From: Sinomonas susongensis
Lineage (GTDB): Bacteria > Actinomycetota > Actinomycetes > Actinomycetales > Micrococcaceae
DNA: 64,000 bases
Reading direction: 5' to 3'
Assembly: GCF_005877005.1 (NCBI RefSeq)
Contig: NZ_SSNH01000008.1
Location: 124,001-188,000, forward strand
Made by a program: the position numbers and the translations under genes. Shown here piece after piece: positions 13,601-52,941 of this stretch. The notes under the pieces are model-generated. The model ran no database searches and had not been told where the DNA came from. It worked only from the letters and a program-made list of their open reading frames with translations. Position 1 is the first letter of the stretch. Every line of letters starts with the position of its first letter.

Positions 13601-14899
13601 GTGAAGGTTCTCGTGATCGGCCCGGGCGGCCGCGAACACGCTCTTGTCCGTTCCCTCCTTGCCGATCCCACTGTGACCGAGGTGCACGCGGCCCCGGGCA
13701 ACGCGGGCATCGCCCAGGTCGTGCCGACCCACCGGATCGACGCCAACGATCCGGCTGCCGTGACCGAACTCGCGCAGAAGCTCGACGTCGACCTCGTCGT
13801 CGTCGGCCCGGAGGCGCCGCTCGCGGCGGGGGTCGCGGACGCGGTGCGAGCGGCGGGGATCGCCGTGTTCGGACCGGGCCGGGAGGCGGCTCAGCTCGAG
13901 GCGTCCAAGGCCTTCGCGAAGCAGGTCATGGCGGAGGCGGGTGTGCCGACGGCGATGGCGCGCGTCGCGACGACGCCGGAGGAGGCCGCTGACGCGCTCG
14001 ACGCGTTCGGCGCCCCGTTCGTGGTCAAGGACGACGGGCTCGCGGCCGGCAAGGGCGTCGTCGTGACCGAGGACCGCGAAGCCGCGCTCGCCCACGCCCA
14101 GGCGTGCTTCGACGCGGGCGGCTCCGTGGTCATCGAGGAGTTCCTCGACGGTCCCGAGGTCTCGCTGTTCGTCCTCAGCGACGGCCGCACCGTGGTCCCG
14201 CTCTCCCCGGCACAGGACTTCAAGCGCATCTTCGACGACGACGAGGGCCCCAACACCGGCGGCATGGGGGCCTACACGCCGCTCGACTGGGCGCCGGAGG
14301 GCCTCGTGGACGAGGTCGTGCGGCGCATCGCCCAGCCGACCATCGACGAGATGGCCAAGCGTGGCACCCCGTTCGTCGGCGTCCTCTACTGCGGCCTCGC
14401 GCTCACGTCCCGCGGCACCCGGGTCATCGAATTCAACGCCCGATTCGGCGACCCCGAGACGCAGGCAGTCCTGGCACGCCTCAAGACCCCGCTGGGCGGG
14501 CTCCTGCTCGCAGCGGCAAAGGGGCGGCTCGCCGAGGCGAGGGAGCTGCGCTGGTCGCCGGAGAGTGCTGTCGCGGTCGTCCTCGCCTCCGAGAACTATC
14601 CGGACAAGCCCCGCACCGGGGACCGCATCCGGGGCCTGAAGAAGGCTGCGGCGGTCGAGGGCGTGCACGTCCTGCATGCGGGCACGAAGGTCGACGACGC
14701 GGGCAACGTCACGAGCGCGGGCGGACGTGTCCTCGCGGTCGTCGCGCTCGGTGAGGATCTCCAGGAGGCACGGGAACGCGCCTACGAGGGCATGGGACTC
14801 ATCCGCCTCGACGGCGGCCAGTTCCGCAAGGACATCGCGGCGAAGGCCGCACGCGGCGAGATCAGGGTTCCGGAGCGGGCCGGGAAGGCAGGCGTGTGA
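13601..14899 (+). CDS. purD: Phosphoribosylamine-glycine ligase
   Basis: 432 aa ATP-grasp enzyme for step 2 of purine synthesis, joining phosphoribosylamine and glycine. The N-terminal KVLVIGPGGREHALVRSL, the VVGPEAPLAAGVADA segment, the ATP-grasp core (FVVKDDGLAAGKGV, EEFLDGPEVS, GPNTGGMGAY) and the FNARFGDPETQ motif are all present. The GTG at 13601 is the only start consistent with the family N-terminus and has a leaderless-type -10 box. The stop overlaps purC (TGATG). Confidence 0.96.
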   Translation: MKVLVIGPGGREHALVRSLLADPTVTEVHAAPGNAGIAQVVPTHRIDANDPAAVTELAQKLDVDLVVVGPEAPLAAGVADAVRAAGIAVFGPGREAAQLEASKAFAKQVMAEAGVPTAMARVATTPEEAADALDAFGAPFVVKDDGLAAGKGVVVTEDREAALAHAQACFDAGGSVVIEEFLDGPEVSLFVLSDGRTVVPLSPAQDFKRIFDDDEGPNTGGMGAYTPLDWAPEGLVDEVVRRIAQPTIDEMAKRGTPFVGVLYCGLALTSRGTRVIEFNARFGDPETQAVLARLKTPLGGLLLAAAKGRLAEARELRWSPESAVAVVLASENYPDKPRTGDRIRGLKKAAAVEGVHVLHAGTKVDDAGNVTSAGGRVLAVVALGEDLQEARERAYEGMGLIRLDGGQFRKDIAAKAARGEIRVPERAGKAGV

Positions 14900-15852
14900 T
14901 GACCGAGTTCGACGGGACGACCGGGGCGGGGACCAAGCGCGGCTACGACGCGGACGCCCCCCAGCTCGAGGGCTGGAAGCACATCTACTCGGGCAAGGTC
15001 CGCGACCTCTACGAGCCGGCCGAGGGCTCTGGCCTTTCACATCCTTCCGACGTGGTGCTCGTGGTCGCGAGCGACCGCATCAGTGCCTACGACTACGTCC
15101 TCTCGAGCGAGATCCCGGACAAGGGACGGGTGCTGACCCAGCTCAGCCTCTGGTGGTTCGAGCAGCTCAACGTGCCGAACCACGTGGTGGGATCGACGGC
15201 CGACGACGGCGTCCCCGCCGACGTGGTGGGCCGCGCCATGATCTGCCGGCGCCTCGAGATGTACCCGGTCGAGTGCATCGCCCGCGGCTACCTCACGGGA
15301 TCAGGCCTCGCGGAGTACCGCGAGCATGGCACCGTGTGCGAGATCCCGCTTCCGCCGGGCCTGGTGGACGGCTCGCGCCTTCCGGAGGCGGTCTTCACGC
15401 CTTCGGCGAAGGCAGAGATCGGTGAGCACGACGAGAACATCACGTACGAGGACGTCACCGGAATGGTGGGGGACGACGCCGCAGCTCGGCTCCGCGACCT
15501 CACCCTCGAGGTGTACCGCGAGGCGGAGCGGATCGCCCGCGGGCGCGGCATCATCCTCGCAGACACGAAGGTCGAGTTCGGCGTGGATCCCCTGACCGGC
15601 GACATCACACTCGGCGACGAGGTGCTGACGCCGGACTCGTCCCGGTTCTGGGACGCGTCGACGTGGGAGCCCGGGAAGGCTCAGCCGTCGTTCGACAAGC
15701 AGTTCGTCCGCGACTGGCTCACGTCGTCGGCCTCGGGCTGGGACCGGCACTCGGGCGAGGAGCCCCCGGCTCTGCCAGCCGACGTCGTCGAACGAACCCG
15801 CGAAAGGTACGTCGAGGCCTACGAAAGGCTCACGGGCCGCAGCTTCGCCTAG
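14899..15852 (+). CDS. purC: Phosphoribosylaminoimidazole-succinocarboxamide synthase
   Basis: 317 aa. SAICAR synthase condenses CAIR with aspartate using ATP. Landmarks: YSGKVRDLYEP, VASDRISAYDYVLSSEIPDKG, ECIARGYLTGSG, GIILADTKVEFG and the TPDSSRFW segment. The ATG at 14899 overlaps the purD stop; a GTG one codon earlier is possible. Its 3' end overlaps the convergent XRE-TPR gene by 4 bp, the two genes sharing CTAG as stop codons on opposite strands. Confidence 0.96.
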   Translation: MTEFDGTTGAGTKRGYDADAPQLEGWKHIYSGKVRDLYEPAEGSGLSHPSDVVLVVASDRISAYDYVLSSEIPDKGRVLTQLSLWWFEQLNVPNHVVGSTADDGVPADVVGRAMICRRLEMYPVECIARGYLTGSGLAEYREHGTVCEIPLPPGLVDGSRLPEAVFTPSAKAEIGEHDENITYEDVTGMVGDDAAARLRDLTLEVYREAERIARGRGIILADTKVEFGVDPLTGDITLGDEVLTPDSSRFWDASTWEPGKAQPSFDKQFVRDWLTSSASGWDRHSGEEPPALPADVVERTRERYVEAYERLTGRSFA

Positions 15853-17105
15853 TCCGGGTCCCCGGCCCTCTGCTGGGCCAGCCGGATCTCGAGGATGGCG
15901 TCCATGGTCTGCTGGACCTTCTCGGAGGCTCCCGCATAGCTGAACTGCTCGCGGGCGTCCTTGAGGAGCTCGAGCGCCTCGTCGTTGCGTCCGAGCGCCT
16001 TGAGCGCGCGGCCGTAGAGCAGGGCGACCTCGCCGGCGGTGTGGCGCCCCAGGACGTTCTTCTCGGAGTGGATTTCCTTGAGCCGCTCGATGGCCTCGGG
16101 GATCTGGCCGTTGAGGTAGAGCCACCGGGCACGGATGAACGCGACTTCCAGCTGTTCCGGCCGGGAGCCGCCCACGATCGAGAGGGCGAGCTCGGCGCGC
16201 TCGATCGCTGCGAGGGTCTCGGGTTCGACGATGCCGCCCGAGAGGCGGACGGCGGCGGACGCCTTGTTGAAACGGGCCCAGAGCTCGATGTCGTTGGCGG
16301 GGGAGAGGAGCTTGGCAGCCCGTTCGTGGTGCTTGACTCCTTCCTCGTAGTCGGCGCGCATGAACGCGACGTTGCCGATGACCCACTCGACCTCGCCCGA
16401 GAGCTGCCCCATCGACTCCTCGTCGACGAGTGTGCCGAGGATGCGGCAGTAGTCCCACGCCTCGTCGAGGCGGCCGCTTTCGGCGAGGGCCCCGATGAGG
16501 GCGCGGAGTGCGCCGATGTAGATCGTCGACCCGGCGGGGAGCTGCGCCCCCAGCCGTACTGCCTCCCGCGCGTGTTCGACGGCGGTGCCGAGCTGGCCGA
16601 GGCCGTGGCACACGGCCGCCAGCATCTGGTGCGCGCGCACCGCGAGGCCGTCCGACTCGGCGATGATGGGGTGTTCCAGGAGGTGCTGGACGATGCGCTG
16701 GCACTCGGCGAGTTGGCCCTGCTTCATGAGGCACTCGGCCTGCATGTAGGTCATGTTCCACCACGCGCTGTTGTTCCTCGCCTCGAGGGCGAACTGGGCC
16801 GCTGTCGCGGCGTGGCTCGCCGCCTGGGCGTAGTCGCGCATGTCCCAGGCCTGCCGGGCGTAGAGCCCGGCGAGGACGTATTCGGCGTCGTTCGCCGTGA
16901 CCGGCTGGCTCCACGCCTCGAGCGCCTTGGGCGCAAGCTCGAGCCGGCGGGCCAGCTCCTGGATGACCTCGGGGGTCGGCTCGCGGCGGCCGGTCTCAAG
17001 GAGGGAAATGTAGCTCGGGGAGTACAGGTCCTTTCCCAGTTCCGCCTGCGTGAGCCCACGCTCGAGACGCTCGGCCCGCAACTTCTCGCCGAATCCGCTC
17101 CCCAC
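15849..17105 (-). CDS. XRE-family regulator with C-terminal TPR domain (candidate peptide-pheromone receptor)
   Basis: 418 aa. Residues about 8-62 are a lambda-repressor-type HTH (LRAERLERGLTQAELG, then SYISLLETGRREPT). The remaining 350 residues are helical and TPR-like, with repeating pairs such as AEYVLAGLYARQAWDMRDYA, HAATAAQFALEARN and ALLYGRALKALGRNDEALELL. This layout matches Gram-positive cytoplasmic receptors of secreted peptides (Rgg, PlcR, PrgX group), where the TPR groove binds the peptide. GTG at 17105 is chosen because GAGGAGG lies 7 nt upstream. It is divergent from a secreted repeat-peptide gene with an inverted-repeat operator between them. The receptor role is an inference; TPR-containing XRE proteins with other ligands also exist in actinobacteria. 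Confidence 0.85.
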   Translation of the reverse strand: MGSGFGEKLRAERLERGLTQAELGKDLYSPSYISLLETGRREPTPEVIQELARRLELAPKALEAWSQPVTANDAEYVLAGLYARQAWDMRDYAQAASHAATAAQFALEARNNSAWWNMTYMQAECLMKQGQLAECQRIVQHLLEHPIIAESDGLAVRAHQMLAAVCHGLGQLGTAVEHAREAVRLGAQLPAGSTIYIGALRALIGALAESGRLDEAWDYCRILGTLVDEESMGQLSGEVEWVIGNVAFMRADYEEGVKHHERAAKLLSPANDIELWARFNKASAAVRLSGGIVEPETLAAIERAELALSIVGGSRPEQLEVAFIRARWLYLNGQIPEAIERLKEIHSEKNVLGRHTAGEVALLYGRALKALGRNDEALELLKDAREQFSYAGASEKVQQTMDAILEIRLAQQRAGDPD

Positions 17106-17165
17106 AACATCCTCCTCGACTGGCCCCCCACCCAGTGGCTGGGGGTAAGGCGATAGACTAGCGGC

Positions 17166-17205
17166 TTGACACCTGCTGTGGATGTTATTTTACTTGGGGT
17201 GTCAA
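17166..17205. promoter_or_regulatory. Promoter of the repeat-peptide gene flanked by an 8-bp inverted repeat
   Basis: TTGACACC (17166-17173) and GGTGTCAA (17198-17205) are perfect inverted arms whose centres are 32 bp apart, about three helical turns. The left arm contains a consensus -35 TTGACA; TTTACT at 17189-17194 is a -10 at 17-bp spacing. The region between is the only AT-rich DNA nearby. The divergent XRE-TPR protein is the obvious ligand for the arms (inference). Confidence 0.6.
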
Positions 17206-17258
17206 TCACGACAAAGCACGCTCTGCCCGATTGCACCCGCTACAACTAAGGACACGAC

Positions 17259-17555
17259 ATGCTCAAGAAGCTGACTGCGTCACTCGCCCTCCTCGGCGCG
17301 CTGGCAGTCGGAGGCGTCTCGGTTGCCCCGAGCGCCATCGGCAACTGGCCTGACCCCATGAAGACCACGGCGATCGGCAACTGGCCCGATCCCATGAAGG
17401 CTACCGCCATCGGCAACTGGCCTGACCCCATGAAGAGCACGGCGATCGGCAACTGGCCTGACCCGATGAAGGCTACCGCCATCGGCAACTGGCCCGACCC
17501 GATGAAGGCTACCGCCATCGGCAACTGGCCCGACCCCATGAAGTCGAAGATCTGA
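17259..17555 (+). CDS. Secreted repeat-peptide precursor, candidate multi-copy pheromone
   Basis: 98 aa. Residues 1-25 are a Sec signal peptide: MLKK, a hydrophobic core LTASLALLGALAVGG and a cleavage-type end SVAPS before Ala. The rest is six head-to-tail copies of AIGNWPDPMK, spaced by TT, AT or ST, and ending SKI. Each unit is 12 residues (36 bp). Third-codon positions vary between copies while the amino acids do not, which suggests selection on the peptide. Each copy ends in Lys, a possible processing point. The layout recalls multi-copy pheromone precursors such as yeast alpha-factor. The divergent XRE-TPR gene would be the receptor. A surface or metal-binding repeat protein is the alternative. 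No oligopeptide permease is in the window. Confidence 0.8.
   Translation: MLKKLTASLALLGALAVGGVSVAPSAIGNWPDPMKTTAIGNWPDPMKATAIGNWPDPMKSTAIGNWPDPMKATAIGNWPDPMKATAIGNWPDPMKSKI
17334..17543 (+). repeat. Six tandem 36-bp units inside the peptide precursor gene
   Basis: Units begin at 17334, 17370, 17406, 17442, 17478 and 17514; the last is 30 bp before the terminal codons. All encode AIGNWPDPMK. Differences are confined to Ala, Pro and Asp third positions and to the two linker codons. Confidence 0.97.
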
Positions 17556-17631
17556 GTCGACCTCAGCTGAGGGCCACAAGCCCTCGTCGATGATCCGCTG
17601 TTGTCTGGCGGGTCCAGAGAAGTGCCAGGAA

Positions 17632-17661
17632 AGCCCCGCCCGTCCCAGGACAGGCGGGGCT
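17632..17661 (+). terminator. Terminator of the repeat-peptide gene
   Basis: AGCCCCGCC (17632-17640) pairs with GGCGGGGCT (17653-17661), followed by ATTCCTGTG. A 12-bp palindrome CCTCAGCTGAGG lies nearer the stop codon at about 17562-17573. Confidence 0.7.
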
Positions 17662-18746: not shown

Positions 18747-18823
<77 letters not shown>

Positions 18824-26818: not shown

Positions 26819-27758
26819 CCGCCGTTTCATCGTCCCCAAGCGACTTCAGGGGGCGGCGCGCAGCTGGCTTGAGGAGGCGGACCGTCCGCCGCGGAACGCC
26901 CGGCTGGCTTCCTCGGTGGTCCTGGTCCGGGATTCGGCCGAGGGCACCGAGACATGGCTCGCCTATCGCCCTGGGGATTCGCCCCTGGGGGTCGTCGCCT
27001 TCCCCGGCGGCTCGGTTCAGAACGCCGACCACGACACGTTCGACTGGTTCGGCCCCTCGGTCGGCCAGTGGGCGGAGATGCTCGGGCTCGAGGAGTTCTC
27101 CAAGGCACGGGCCCACGTCGTCGGGGCCATCCGCGAGCTCTTCGAGGAGACCGGAGTGCTCCTCGCTGGGTCGGACGCGACGACCGTGGTGGAGGGCACC
27201 GGGACCGCTGACTGGATGCGGGCACGGGAGGCCGTCGCCAACGAGGAAATCAGCTTCGCAGACCTCATGGCGAAGCGGGGCCTCGGGCTGAGGACCGATC
27301 TCCTGCGGCCGCTCGTGCACTGGGTCTCGCCCGACTTCGCCCATCGCCGCTTCGATACCCGCTACTTCGCCGCTACGCTTCCGGTCGGCCAGACCCCGAT
27401 GCTGCTGCCCAGCCGAGGCGTCTGGGGCGACTGGGTGCTGCCTGCTCGGCTCCTCAAGGACCGCGACACGTCCGCCTTCGGGGACTCCATCGGCGAGGAC
27501 GAGACCAAGGGACTGCCCCTTGCCGAGCTCCTGGTCCCGGCGAGCGAGATCATCCTCGAGAAGATCATGAAGGCCAAGGGCTGCATCGCGTACCTCAACC
27601 TCAAGCGCTCCACGCACACCTATCAGGCGCAGCTCGAGCAGGAGGACGGGAAGCTATGGCTCCGCGTCGAGGCGCCGAGTACGGCCCCCGCAACGGCAGC
27701 ACTCTCCGCCATCCCCCACCCCACCCCCACCGTTTCGGGTACAGATAACCAGCCCTGA
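26802..27758 (+). CDS. NUDIX hydrolase with an interrupted Nudix box (NUDT19-like)
   Basis: 318 aa. AFPGGSV begins the Nudix box and IRELFEETGVLL ends it, but about 40 residues lie between instead of the usual dozen, the layout known from NUDT19-type acyl-CoA/CoA diphosphatases. Substrate remains a guess. TTG at 26802 is preferred (GGTGGAG 4 nt upstream); TTG at 26811 is possible. It overlaps ridA by 17 bp. The last codons (HPTPTVSGTDNQP) and the stop come from the first unit of the intergenic repeat array, so the natural C-terminus may have been replaced by repeat sequence. Confidence 0.82.
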   Translation: MQNLHSRRFIVPKRLQGAARSWLEEADRPPRNARLASSVVLVRDSAEGTETWLAYRPGDSPLGVVAFPGGSVQNADHDTFDWFGPSVGQWAEMLGLEEFSKARAHVVGAIRELFEETGVLLAGSDATTVVEGTGTADWMRAREAVANEEISFADLMAKRGLGLRTDLLRPLVHWVSPDFAHRRFDTRYFAATLPVGQTPMLLPSRGVWGDWVLPARLLKDRDTSAFGDSIGEDETKGLPLAELLVPASEIILEKIMKAKGCIAYLNLKRSTHTYQAQLEQEDGKLWLRVEAPSTAPATAALSAIPHPTPTVSGTDNQP

Positions 27759-28068
27759 GCGAGTCTCGGGTACGGCTACTCGTGCCACAGAGCGTTTCGG
27801 GTACAGCTAACCAGCCGCTGAGATATCTCGGGTACGGCTACTCGCGCCACAGAGCGTTTCGGGTACAGGTAACCAACGACGACGGCCGGCGCCTTCCGCT
27901 TGGAAGGCGCCGGCCGTTGAGTTTCCGCACCCGAGTTCGATCTAGAGCACGAGTTTCCGTACCCGAGATGCCCCAAGGGGGTGGGTTGGTGTACCCGAGA
28001 TGCCCCTAGGGGGTGGGTTTGGTGTACCCGAGATGCCCCCCAGGGGTGGGTTGGTGTACCCGAGACGG
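27732..28068. repeat. Intergenic array of CTCGGGTAC-type repeats in two orientations around a hairpin
   Basis: The 311-bp gap 27759-28069 and the end of the NUDIX gene hold ten copies of a unit centred on CGGGTAC. Left of the hairpin: GTTTCGGGTACAG-type at about 27733, 27794 and 27855, alternating with TCTCGGGTACGGCTACTCG at about 27764 and 27825. Right of it, inverted: GTTTCCGCACCCGAG and GTTTCCGTACCCGAG (from 27921 and 27953), then GTACCCGAGATGCCCC at 27991 and 28024 and a last GTACCCGAG near 28056. The right-hand units also share GGGGGTGGGTTGGT. No coding potential seen. Confidence 0.9.
27882..27917. terminator. Bidirectional terminator between NUDIX and Crp-family genes
   Basis: Perfect 16-bp arms (ACGGCCGGCGCCTTCC and its complement) around a GCTT loop, at the centre of the repeat array and between convergent genes. 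Confidence 0.8.
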
Positions 28069-51697: not shown

Positions 51698-52941
51698 ACA
51701 CCCTTCCGCTCGTCGGCACTGCCCCGCTCGTCGGCACTGCCCCGCTCGTCGGCACTGCCCCGCTCGTCGGCGCGGCCCACCTCGTTGACGCTGAGCTTCT
51801 CGACGACGTGCGGGAGCGCGTCCTCGCGGTGCCCGGTCCCGTGACCCCGGCCCGTATCGCGGCGGCCGTCCACGAGAGCGGTCGTCTCTTGGGCACCGCG
51901 GGGACGCTCGCCGCCGTCGAATTGATCTCCGCAGAACTGAGCGGACTGGGACCCCTCCAGAAGCTCGTCAAGGATCCGCGCGTTACGGACATCCTCGTGA
52001 ACGGACCCGGCGAGGTTTGGCTCGACCGGGGAGACGGGCTTGAGCCTGCACCGGTCAGCTTCCCATCGGAGGAGGCCGTCCGTGCGCTCGCGGTCCGATT
52101 GGTGGCTTCGGGGGACCGACGGCTCGACGACAGTTCACCATGCGTGGACGTGCGGGTCGCAGGCGGGTACCGGGTCCATGCGGTGCTCCCGCCCATCTCG
52201 ACCGGGACTACGCTCCTGTCGGTCCGTATCCGCCGTCACCAGGCCTTCGATCTCACAGAGCTCGAGCACGCCGGAACGATCCTTCCGGAGCAGCGTTCCG
52301 TCCTCGAATCGATTGCGACAGGGCGAGTGAACTACCTCGTGAGCGGCGCCACGGGAAGCGGGAAGACGAGCCTGCTCAGCACCCTGCTGGGCCTAGCACC
52401 GTCCACCGAGCGGATCGTCCTCGTGGAAGATGCGTCCGAGTTGAATCCCGCTCATCCGCACGTGGTCGGGCTCGAGGCGCGTCACGGGAACGTGGAAGGG
52501 AGCGGGAAGGTCGACCTCGCCGAACTCGTCCGGCAGGCCCTGCGGATGCGCCCCGACCGACTCGTGGTCGGGGAGTGCCGTGGCGCTGAAGTACGGGAAC
52601 TCCTCGCCGCGCTCAACACGGGACACAGCGGTGCCGGTACCGTTCACGCGAATTCCGCAGAGGCCGTCGCCGCCCGACTCATCGCACTTGGAGCCCTCGC
52701 AGGACTTTCGCCAGAGGCGATGACTCTTCAGGCTGCGAATGCCGTCGGTGCCGTGCTGCACCTCGAGCGGAGGGGCGGTCCGAGGCGGCTGGCCACTGTC
52801 GCTGCATTGGCCGAGAAGGCTGGGAGACTCGTCGTAGCCCCTGCTCTGGTCCGGCTTCCGGGTTCCGACGCCGTGAGGAAAGGGCCCGGTTGGGACGCGC
52901 TCTCTGCCCGAATTTCAGAGGAGTCCGAGGCGACGGCATGA
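51694..52941 (+). CDS. tadA: TadA/CpaF-type secretion ATPase
   Basis: 415 aa. Type II/IV secretion ATPase powering Flp pilus assembly: RVTDILVNGPGEVWLDRG, Walker A GATGSGKTSLLS, LVEDASELNP, Walker B-like RPDRLVVGECRGAEVRELL and a His box GHSGAGTVHANSA. The first 27 residues are a low-complexity run of PLVGTA units coded by an 18-bp tandem repeat, absent from the family core and not needed for the fold. In frame overlap with both neighbours. Confidence 0.92.
   Translation: MNTLPLVGTAPLVGTAPLVGTAPLVGAAHLVDAELLDDVRERVLAVPGPVTPARIAAAVHESGRLLGTAGTLAAVELISAELSGLGPLQKLVKDPRVTDILVNGPGEVWLDRGDGLEPAPVSFPSEEAVRALAVRLVASGDRRLDDSSPCVDVRVAGGYRVHAVLPPISTGTTLLSVRIRRHQAFDLTELEHAGTILPEQRSVLESIATGRVNYLVSGATGSGKTSLLSTLLGLAPSTERIVLVEDASELNPAHPHVVGLEARHGNVEGSGKVDLAELVRQALRMRPDRLVVGECRGAEVRELLAALNTGHSGAGTVHANSAEAVAARLIALGALAGLSPEAMTLQAANAVGAVLHLERRGGPRRLATVAALAEKAGRLVVAPALVRLPGSDAVRKGPGWDALSARISEESEATA
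51706..51777 (+). repeat. Four tandem 18-bp units in the start of tadA
   Basis: CCGCTCGTCGGCACTGCC occurs at 51706, 51724 and 51742 without change and at 51760 with two substitutions. Unit length is a multiple of three, so copy number changes would lengthen the N-terminus without frameshift. Confidence 0.97.

Follow-up and report, generated by a model that had tools for sequence, protein, structure and literature searches.

A divergent HTH-TPR regulator and a six-copy peptide precursor in Sinomonas susongensis: a probable RRNPP-like signalling pair in Actinomycetes

What is the use of a small secreted protein that consists of little more than six copies of one short peptide, and why should it be encoded back to back with a cytoplasmic regulator? 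The question is raised by a locus of the soil bacterium Sinomonas susongensis, lying in a stretch of 64,000 nucleotides (contig NZ_SSNH01000008.1, positions 124,001 to 188,000) that is referred to as a whole as the window and whose own numbering is used here. The receptor gene and the precursor gene, read directly as open reading frames (ORFs), are divergent. The first encodes an XRE-family protein with a helix-turn-helix (HTH) domain and tetratricopeptide repeats (TPRs), and the second a precursor in which AIGNWPDPMK occurs six times. We consider it probable that the pair constitutes an RRNPP-like secreted-peptide signalling system in Actinomycetes. The observations that carry this reading are the gene pair itself, the conservation of the pair, of the peptide and of an intergenic dyad, and the architecture of the receptor. 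The features of the pair are as follows.

15849-17105, minus strand: XRE-family HTH and TPR regulator, putative cytoplasmic peptide receptor (418-residue ORF with GTG start; Pfam; model)
17259-17555, plus strand: 98-residue precursor, a signal sequence and six AIGNWPDPMK copies (ORF with ATG start)
17259-17327, plus strand: Sec-type signal sequence MLKKLTASLALLGALAVGGVSVA (from sequence; 3' end estimated; orthologue precursors start similarly)
17334-17363, plus strand: peptide copy 1 (sequence)
17370-17399, plus strand: peptide copy 2 (sequence)
17406-17435, plus strand: peptide copy 3 (sequence)
17442-17471, plus strand: peptide copy 4 (sequence)
17478-17507, plus strand: peptide copy 5 (sequence)
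17514-17543, plus strand: peptide copy 6 (sequence)
17166-17205, no strand: 40-bp dyad TTGACA-N28-TGTCAA, putative operator or promoter element of the divergent pair (sequence and conservation)

The precursor and its receptor

The precursor begins with MLKKLTASLALLGALAVGGVSVAPS, continues with the six copies, separated by the two-residue linkers TT, AT, ST, AT and AT, and ends in SKI. A preliminary description of the locus had reported an XRE-TPR regulator back to back with such a 98-residue signal-sequence protein, which the ORFs and Pfam confirm, and had stated that codons but not amino acids differ between the copies. The latter was found to be correct as well: over all pairs of the six copies, 30 codon differences were counted, all synonymous and none non-synonymous. 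The DNA pattern for GNWPDPM occurs at six sites in the 3.77-Mb genome, all within the precursor gene, and the reversed-pattern control at none. Tandem Repeats Finder scored the array at 322 and 358 for two periods, the higher score being the top of 14 rows. These scores, the pattern count and the synonymous-only differences rule out a chance repeat as the source of the array, and an antisense artefact is ruled out by the plus-strand frame, which is kept amid codon drift in orthologue precursors. No known domain was detected in the precursor above the curated cut-off; the best weak matches were AimP_fam (E 0.066), over the signal sequence, and YadA_head (E 0.013).

The receptor matched HTH_3 (7e-12; an XRE-type HTH at residues 9-57) and TPR_12 (4e-11) in Pfam. 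Its model, with a predicted local distance difference test (pLDDT) score of 88.2, shows the HTH followed by TPR-type helix pairs, eight by our own division, and the receptor thus has the N-terminal HTH, which Rap has lost as a DNA-binding domain, and five to nine TPRs by which RRNPPA receptors are recognized. A profile search matched it to PlcR (E 4e-8), and Rap and NprR were found among the structural matches of the model. In 20 sequences drawn from both of the receptor classes described below, 18 large or charged residues are conserved in 19 or 20, and nine of them lie on the A helices of TPRs 5-7; this patch is only suggestive of a peptide-binding surface. The receptor of Sinomonas gamaensis is 97% identical in sequence. 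When 50,697 phage records were searched at E 1e-5, nothing matched, so that a phage origin was rejected, and 20 matching plasmid records (Streptomyces 19, Embleya 1), all below 60% identity, led to the rejection of a plasmid origin; no Trp-Pro precursor was seen beside the plasmid-borne matches in the four fetched.

Conservation of the pair, the peptide and the dyad

The close orthologue set was made up of the window and of 80 receptor relatives (75-97% identity), the best among 121, in records named Sinomonas, Arthrobacter, Paenarthrobacter and Pseudarthrobacter. A search for the precursor pattern and its divergent XRE-TPR partner across relatives, as suggested in the preliminary description, recovered a divergent signal-sequence ORF with GNWPDP in all 80 kept loci, and hence in 81 of 81 with the window. 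RRNPPA systems characteristically have a small gene for an exported propeptide next to that of the receptor, and this arrangement is present throughout; signal sequences, judged by composition rules, are Sec-like in 81 of 81.

GNWPDP occurs once in five of these precursors, twice in 39, three times in 16, four times in 17, five times in three and six times in one, so the window stands at the high end of a range of one to six. This first count searched for exact GNWPDP and was blind to amino-acid change. A recount allowing up to three changes after residue 18 found 230 core-like segments, of which 220 are exact, three carry one change (GIWPDP, all in L050) and seven carry two (six GNWADQ, one GNSPDS), GNWADQ being an additional segment, located upstream, in six loci of Arthrobacter. 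Within the 220 exact cores, Asp is encoded equally by GAC and GAT (110 each), and Gly and Pro by four codons each; the next residue is Met in 207, Ala in eight and Val in five. The protein ends exactly at motif position 7 in 69 of the 81 (59 GNWPDPM, five with V, four with A and one GIWPDPM). Because nearly all cores are exact, codons vary and most precursors end at the motif, the constrained unit is, judging from these sequences, a short peptide whose C-terminus is in most cases defined, and many copies are only one of its states. The motif was found in 54 of the 56 genomes searched for GNWPDP; in the other two, G346 and G391, the receptors have divergent precursors with GNWPNPM twice and with GNWPYPV, and the receptor of G384 is likewise accompanied by a divergent precursor with GNWPNPM twice.

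Could such an array lack a peptide function altogether, having been spread by slippage and kept next to the receptor gene merely by descent beside purC? The neighbourhood would allow it, since purC is convergent with the receptor gene in 78 of 80 loci (the other two hold only about 4.3 kb and end at the contig end) and linkage alone could hold the pair together. The constraint on the core speaks against this, as do the different cores paired with other receptors and the Trp-Pro micro-ORFs beside receptors outside Micrococcaceae, both described below, and we regard it as scarcely credible.

The dyad is equally constant. All 80 of the 80 orthologue loci share the spacing seen in the window; across the 81, TTGACA is invariant and TGTCAA is present in 80, with one CGTCAA, and ATTTTAC and TGT in the middle are also invariant. 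The extended form matched once in the window and not at all in 100 shuffles. Genome-wide, the locus holds the single exact copy of the dyad, and two more places match when one mismatch is allowed; the full pattern, with up to three mismatches, occurs at one place. It was also found in six of 14 more distant pairs of the HTH type (L124, L127-L130 and L132), in none of 30 HTH-type loci without a peptide gene and in none of 13 HTH-less loci. A promoter scan called a single sigma-70-like site, which lies on the strand of the receptor gene; no terminator was called.

Some GNWPDPM genes stand away from a receptor. Such a second gene was seen in L159 (2025-2402, minus strand), L160 and L210 (genomes G009, G243 and G227, respectively), with two to four IGNWPDPM copies, including one variant IGWWPDLM in L160, an AGGAGA-type ribosome-binding site and no Sec signal (MSTHAPLS..., MSVNTQLF... 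and MSIHTQHF...). Clustered second sites occur in at least three of the 56 motif-searched genomes. It is possible that these leaderless genes are an internal source or a rival of the signal.

Other elements of the window were noted in passing.

14896-15852, plus strand: purC, convergent with the receptor gene (name by eye)
17632-17661, plus strand: G+C-rich inverted repeat 3' of the precursor gene, possibly a terminator (by eye; the terminator scan called none)
18747-18823, minus strand: tRNA-Pro (CGG), about 1.2 kb past the precursor gene
27731-28065: two adjacent DNA repeat arrays, 31/62-bp and 32-bp
51706-51785: 18-bp tandem repeat (CCGCTCGTCGGCACTGCC), 3.7 perfect copies

Distant receptors, with and without a DNA-binding domain

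Does the pairing extend beyond close relatives? Family and order searches gave matches in 251 of 395 genomes (E 0.001 or better) and in 220 of 297 genomes (many to the HTH only), respectively, and further receptor loci were picked from them by hand. At E 1e-10, 59 of them matched the window protein, the match starting in or near the HTH for 46 and only after it for 13; L209 gave no such match. Divergent Sec-signal Trp-Pro precursors with cores of their own were found at 14 of the 46 full-length receptors. Eight have GNWPD, GNWPN or IWP cores: VGNWPDP (L124), FVGNWPDAV (L125, L126), PGNWPDS (L128), TGNWPNVV (L129), VGIWPNS (L127), PGIWPDS (L130) and VWIWPDS (L132). Three with a TTG start repeat GDWPH six to eight times, a few copies being GNWPH (L141, L143, L145), and L144 has VGEWPHS. 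The remaining two, VGGSWPTS with GGSWPT three times (L204) and MSDTWPA (L206), belong to a different family within the order. L147 and L212 have short ORFs without a leader, whose ends read GDWPHAA and VGDWPD.

A class-wide sample gave matches at 1e-12 or better in 40 of 296 genomes, ten of them, the window's own included, over more than 300 positions. Outside the order, two of six fetched loci carry divergent signal-sequence Trp-Pro micro-ORFs, MMRFKG...ALNWPKCC in L229 and MKTIATAV...TLDWPWI in L232, where the receptor match is partial; none was seen by eye in the other four. Their kinship with the Micrococcaceae peptides is a lead suggested by sequence. Divergent secreted micro-ORFs without Trp-Pro were also seen beside receptor-like genes of other families, in L208 and L209 (f18), with the GPGPxCC variants GPGPACCTT and GPGPMCCAG, and in L226 (f27), ending in PPTCC; they were not counted and maybe represent a further peptide type.

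The 13 proteins matching only after the HTH begin where the TPR part begins (339-384 residues, starts chosen by script). None of the five scanned had an HTH match, and one relative was modelled as a helical solenoid of TPRs only (pLDDT 94.6). In the tree, the 13 group together as a single clade (100/99), which is related to the HTH class. In 12 of 13 loci, the script found a divergent signal-sequence Trp-Pro precursor, ending in or near GWWPN, GWWPH, GYWPF, NNWPG, NWWPN, NWWPH, NWWPD, GWWPNS, GDWPN or GNWPH. The thirteenth, L155, has tandem HTH-less receptors (178-1173 and 1793-2776) with a precursor ending in RIGNWPD between them (1347-1527), divergent from the second. Since proteins without an HTH, which are hardly DNA-binding regulators, are still paired with Trp-Pro precursors, the peptide would most simply be linked to the TPR domain, rather than the DNA-binding domain to a promoter. 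Six genomes (G009, G063, G086, G106, G123 and G137) have both classes, the HTH receptors with GNWPDP sites and the HTH-less ones with another core.

The background of these counts was estimated with a strict precursor definition (38-130 residues, K/R near the start, a 12-residue uncharged hydrophobic-rich run, and a Trp-Pro core near the end or repeated) over 600 bp divergent from the receptor. It was satisfied in 103 of 140 divergent regions (78 of the 81 orthologues, 13 of the 46 remaining full-length receptors and 12 of the 13 without an HTH) versus one of 1373 control stretches taken from these loci, the single control match being the L155 precursor itself, and in none of 416 tiles of the rest of the window. 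A looser scan gave 81 of 81, 15 of 46 and 12 of 13 on a background of 76 of 1373 controls, the L148 match looking spurious by eye. A degenerate 15-base motif matched 381 of 395 genomes, with similar controls, and was too unspecific to be used as evidence.

These pairings bear on another explanation, in which the secreted repeat protein is an antimicrobial, cell-wall or metal-binding effector and the XRE-TPR protein serves only to regulate it, responding to some other cue. Regulators divergent from their targets are common, Sec-signal repeat proteins can be surface or antimicrobial factors, and a copy number varying from one to six would suit an effector. However, single-copy micro-precursors exist, some only 46-52 residues long with the core at the very C-terminus, the pairing persists with HTH-less TPR proteins, and the core is constrained while linkers vary among the orthologue precursors. 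We therefore judge an effector unlikely. Still less probable is a purely intracellular role of the TPR protein, in which it would bind precursor or peptide as a chaperone, as an antitoxin-like partner or to assist secretion, with no cell-cell signalling: the leaderless peptide genes would fit such a role, but the Sec-like signals of all close orthologue precursors do not, and the conserved dyad in the window's receptor class is rather that expected of a transcription factor.

Several findings weigh against RRNPP-like signalling. In 30 of the 46 other full-length homologues, no recognizable Trp-Pro peptide gene is adjacent, two of these homologues being in this genome; scan and inspection found none beside L117-L123, L131, L133-L140, L142, L146, L148 and L149, nor beside L152-L154, L156-L158, L203, L205, L207 and L208. 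The dyad is not present in eight of the 14 distant HTH-type pairs (L125, L126, L141, L143-L145, L204 and L206), and with only one exact dyad in the genome, no regulon is visible beyond the pair. Some peptide genes have no Sec signal (those of L147 and L212, and the second genes of L159, L160 and L210), and the strict precursor definition is post hoc, fixed after the cores had been seen. Designed pentatricopeptide repeat and other TPR-like proteins outscore PlcR in the same profile search, consensus TPRs and LGN stand above PlcR and Rap in another ranked comparison, and the structural-match lists are headed by non-RRNPP TPR proteins; the fold and profile matches are not diagnostic for RRNPP. 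The preliminary description had named XRE-TPR homologues without a repeat-peptide gene as an argument against a signalling pair, and this argument applies to the 30 distant homologues but not to the 81 close loci. Its proposal of peptide signalling thus gains from the complete pairing in close relatives, the constrained peptide and the HTH-less pairs, and loses from the distant receptors that stand alone.

The two paralogues in this genome are L158:129-1352 (minus strand), downstream of a FliG-like gene, and L157:2509-3780 (plus strand), beside an AraC-like regulator (names by eye). In the tree, both fall within a set of 17 rows (99/98) in which GNWPDP is found in each of the eight members that bear a peptide, so a response of the two paralogues to this same peptide is possible.

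If the signalling reading is correct, the precursor would be exported by Sec and cut by signal peptidase and extracellular proteases to octa- to decapeptides centred on (A)IGNWPDPM. These peptides would be re-imported by an oligopeptide permease (the genome has seven matches to the oligopeptide-binding family PF00496) and would bind within the concave groove formed by the TPRs. A receptor dimer on the 40-bp element between the genes would then change its DNA binding, making the pair at least self-regulating. Self-regulation is most likely the first output, because the dyad stands between the divergent genes; the switching, its direction and any wider regulon are likewise proposed from sequence. 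More broadly, we lean towards the view that Actinomycetes own a peptide quorum-sensing superfamily of Sec-exported Trp-Pro micro-precursors (signatures GNWPDPM, GIWPNS, GDWPHS, GWWPN, NWWPD, GSWPTS, LNWPKCC and LDWPWI), each divergent from a cytoplasmic TPR receptor, with DNA-binding PlcR-like and HTH-less Rap-like receptors as parallel channels in one cell and some leaderless internal signal copies.

Comparison with known peptide-signalling systems

Actinomycetota are said to signal typically by enzyme-made small molecules, oligopeptides being the way of Firmicutes (PMC10075063). An older review of actinobacterial quorum sensing (PMC4748050) treats cyclic or modified peptides and butyrolactones; in the part of it consulted, TPR proteins appear as names in a table, and such a receptor-peptide pair was not found. 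These and the other published sources are cited from excerpts. If Arthrobacter and its relatives do use plain ribosomal peptides as a language, read by TPR receptors in the cytoplasm, this would add to the picture of actinobacterial signalling and would predict many receptor-ligand pairs open to testing with inexpensive synthetic peptides. The natural series of different cores, with and without an HTH, could show how TPR receptors read peptides and how specificities evolve, and the candidate pairs in further actinomycete families hint at a principle of broader reach.

What distinguishes the pair from known systems? The yeast alpha-factor precursor, with which the preliminary description had compared it, is also a secreted protein that repeats one peptide in tandem, and its peptide is read through a surface receptor. 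Here, by difference, copies range from one to six and some precursors are single-copy. In Rgg-SHP and ComR-ComS, HTH-TPR regulators sense short re-imported peptides. SHP propeptides use PptAB, and no duplicated propeptide copies were found for Rgg and ComR within the excerpts of PMC9765709, whereas the precursor here is multi-copy with a Sec-type signal. The yeast comparison is not needed, as multi-copy propeptides beside TPR receptors have been described in Firmicutes, with up to six identical copies (PMC9765709) and with duplicated pheromone copies in Phr (PMC11343458). The claim that the system is undescribed accordingly holds for this pair and motif, of which no description was found in the open-access PMC literature (preprints and subscription journals aside), but not for the multi-copy arrangement.

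The pair resembles PlcR-PapR, NprR-NprX and AimR-AimP in its HTH and TPR receptor beside a small Sec-signal propeptide with KK in the n-region, and in the occurrence of multi-copy propeptides (PMC9765709). The RRNPP member AimR recognizes a pair of inverted 6-bp boxes separated by 25 bp, a spacing of 28 bp being tolerated (PMC6458997), which is comparable with TTGACA-N28-TGTCAA here, as a parallel and not a test. Receptors without a peptide gene are also known in Firmicutes (PMC9765709). The pair differs from these systems in its low sequence similarity, its shared Trp-Pro core and its host: the described range of RRNPPA systems is Firmicutes and their mobile elements, whereas these pairs belong to Sinomonas and other Actinomycetes. 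In Bacillales, the propeptide gene lies immediately downstream of the receptor (PMC9765709), unlike the divergent precursor of the window and orthologue loci. The HTH-less clade, though not the window protein, resembles Rap-Phr in pairing a TPR protein lacking a DNA-binding HTH with a secreted propeptide, and differs in its divergent gene order and in a sequence relation shown only for the TPRs. Overall, what appears to be new here, from sequence comparison, is an RRNPP-like pair in a phylum other than Firmicutes, marked by a peptide signature of its own and by receptors of two classes.

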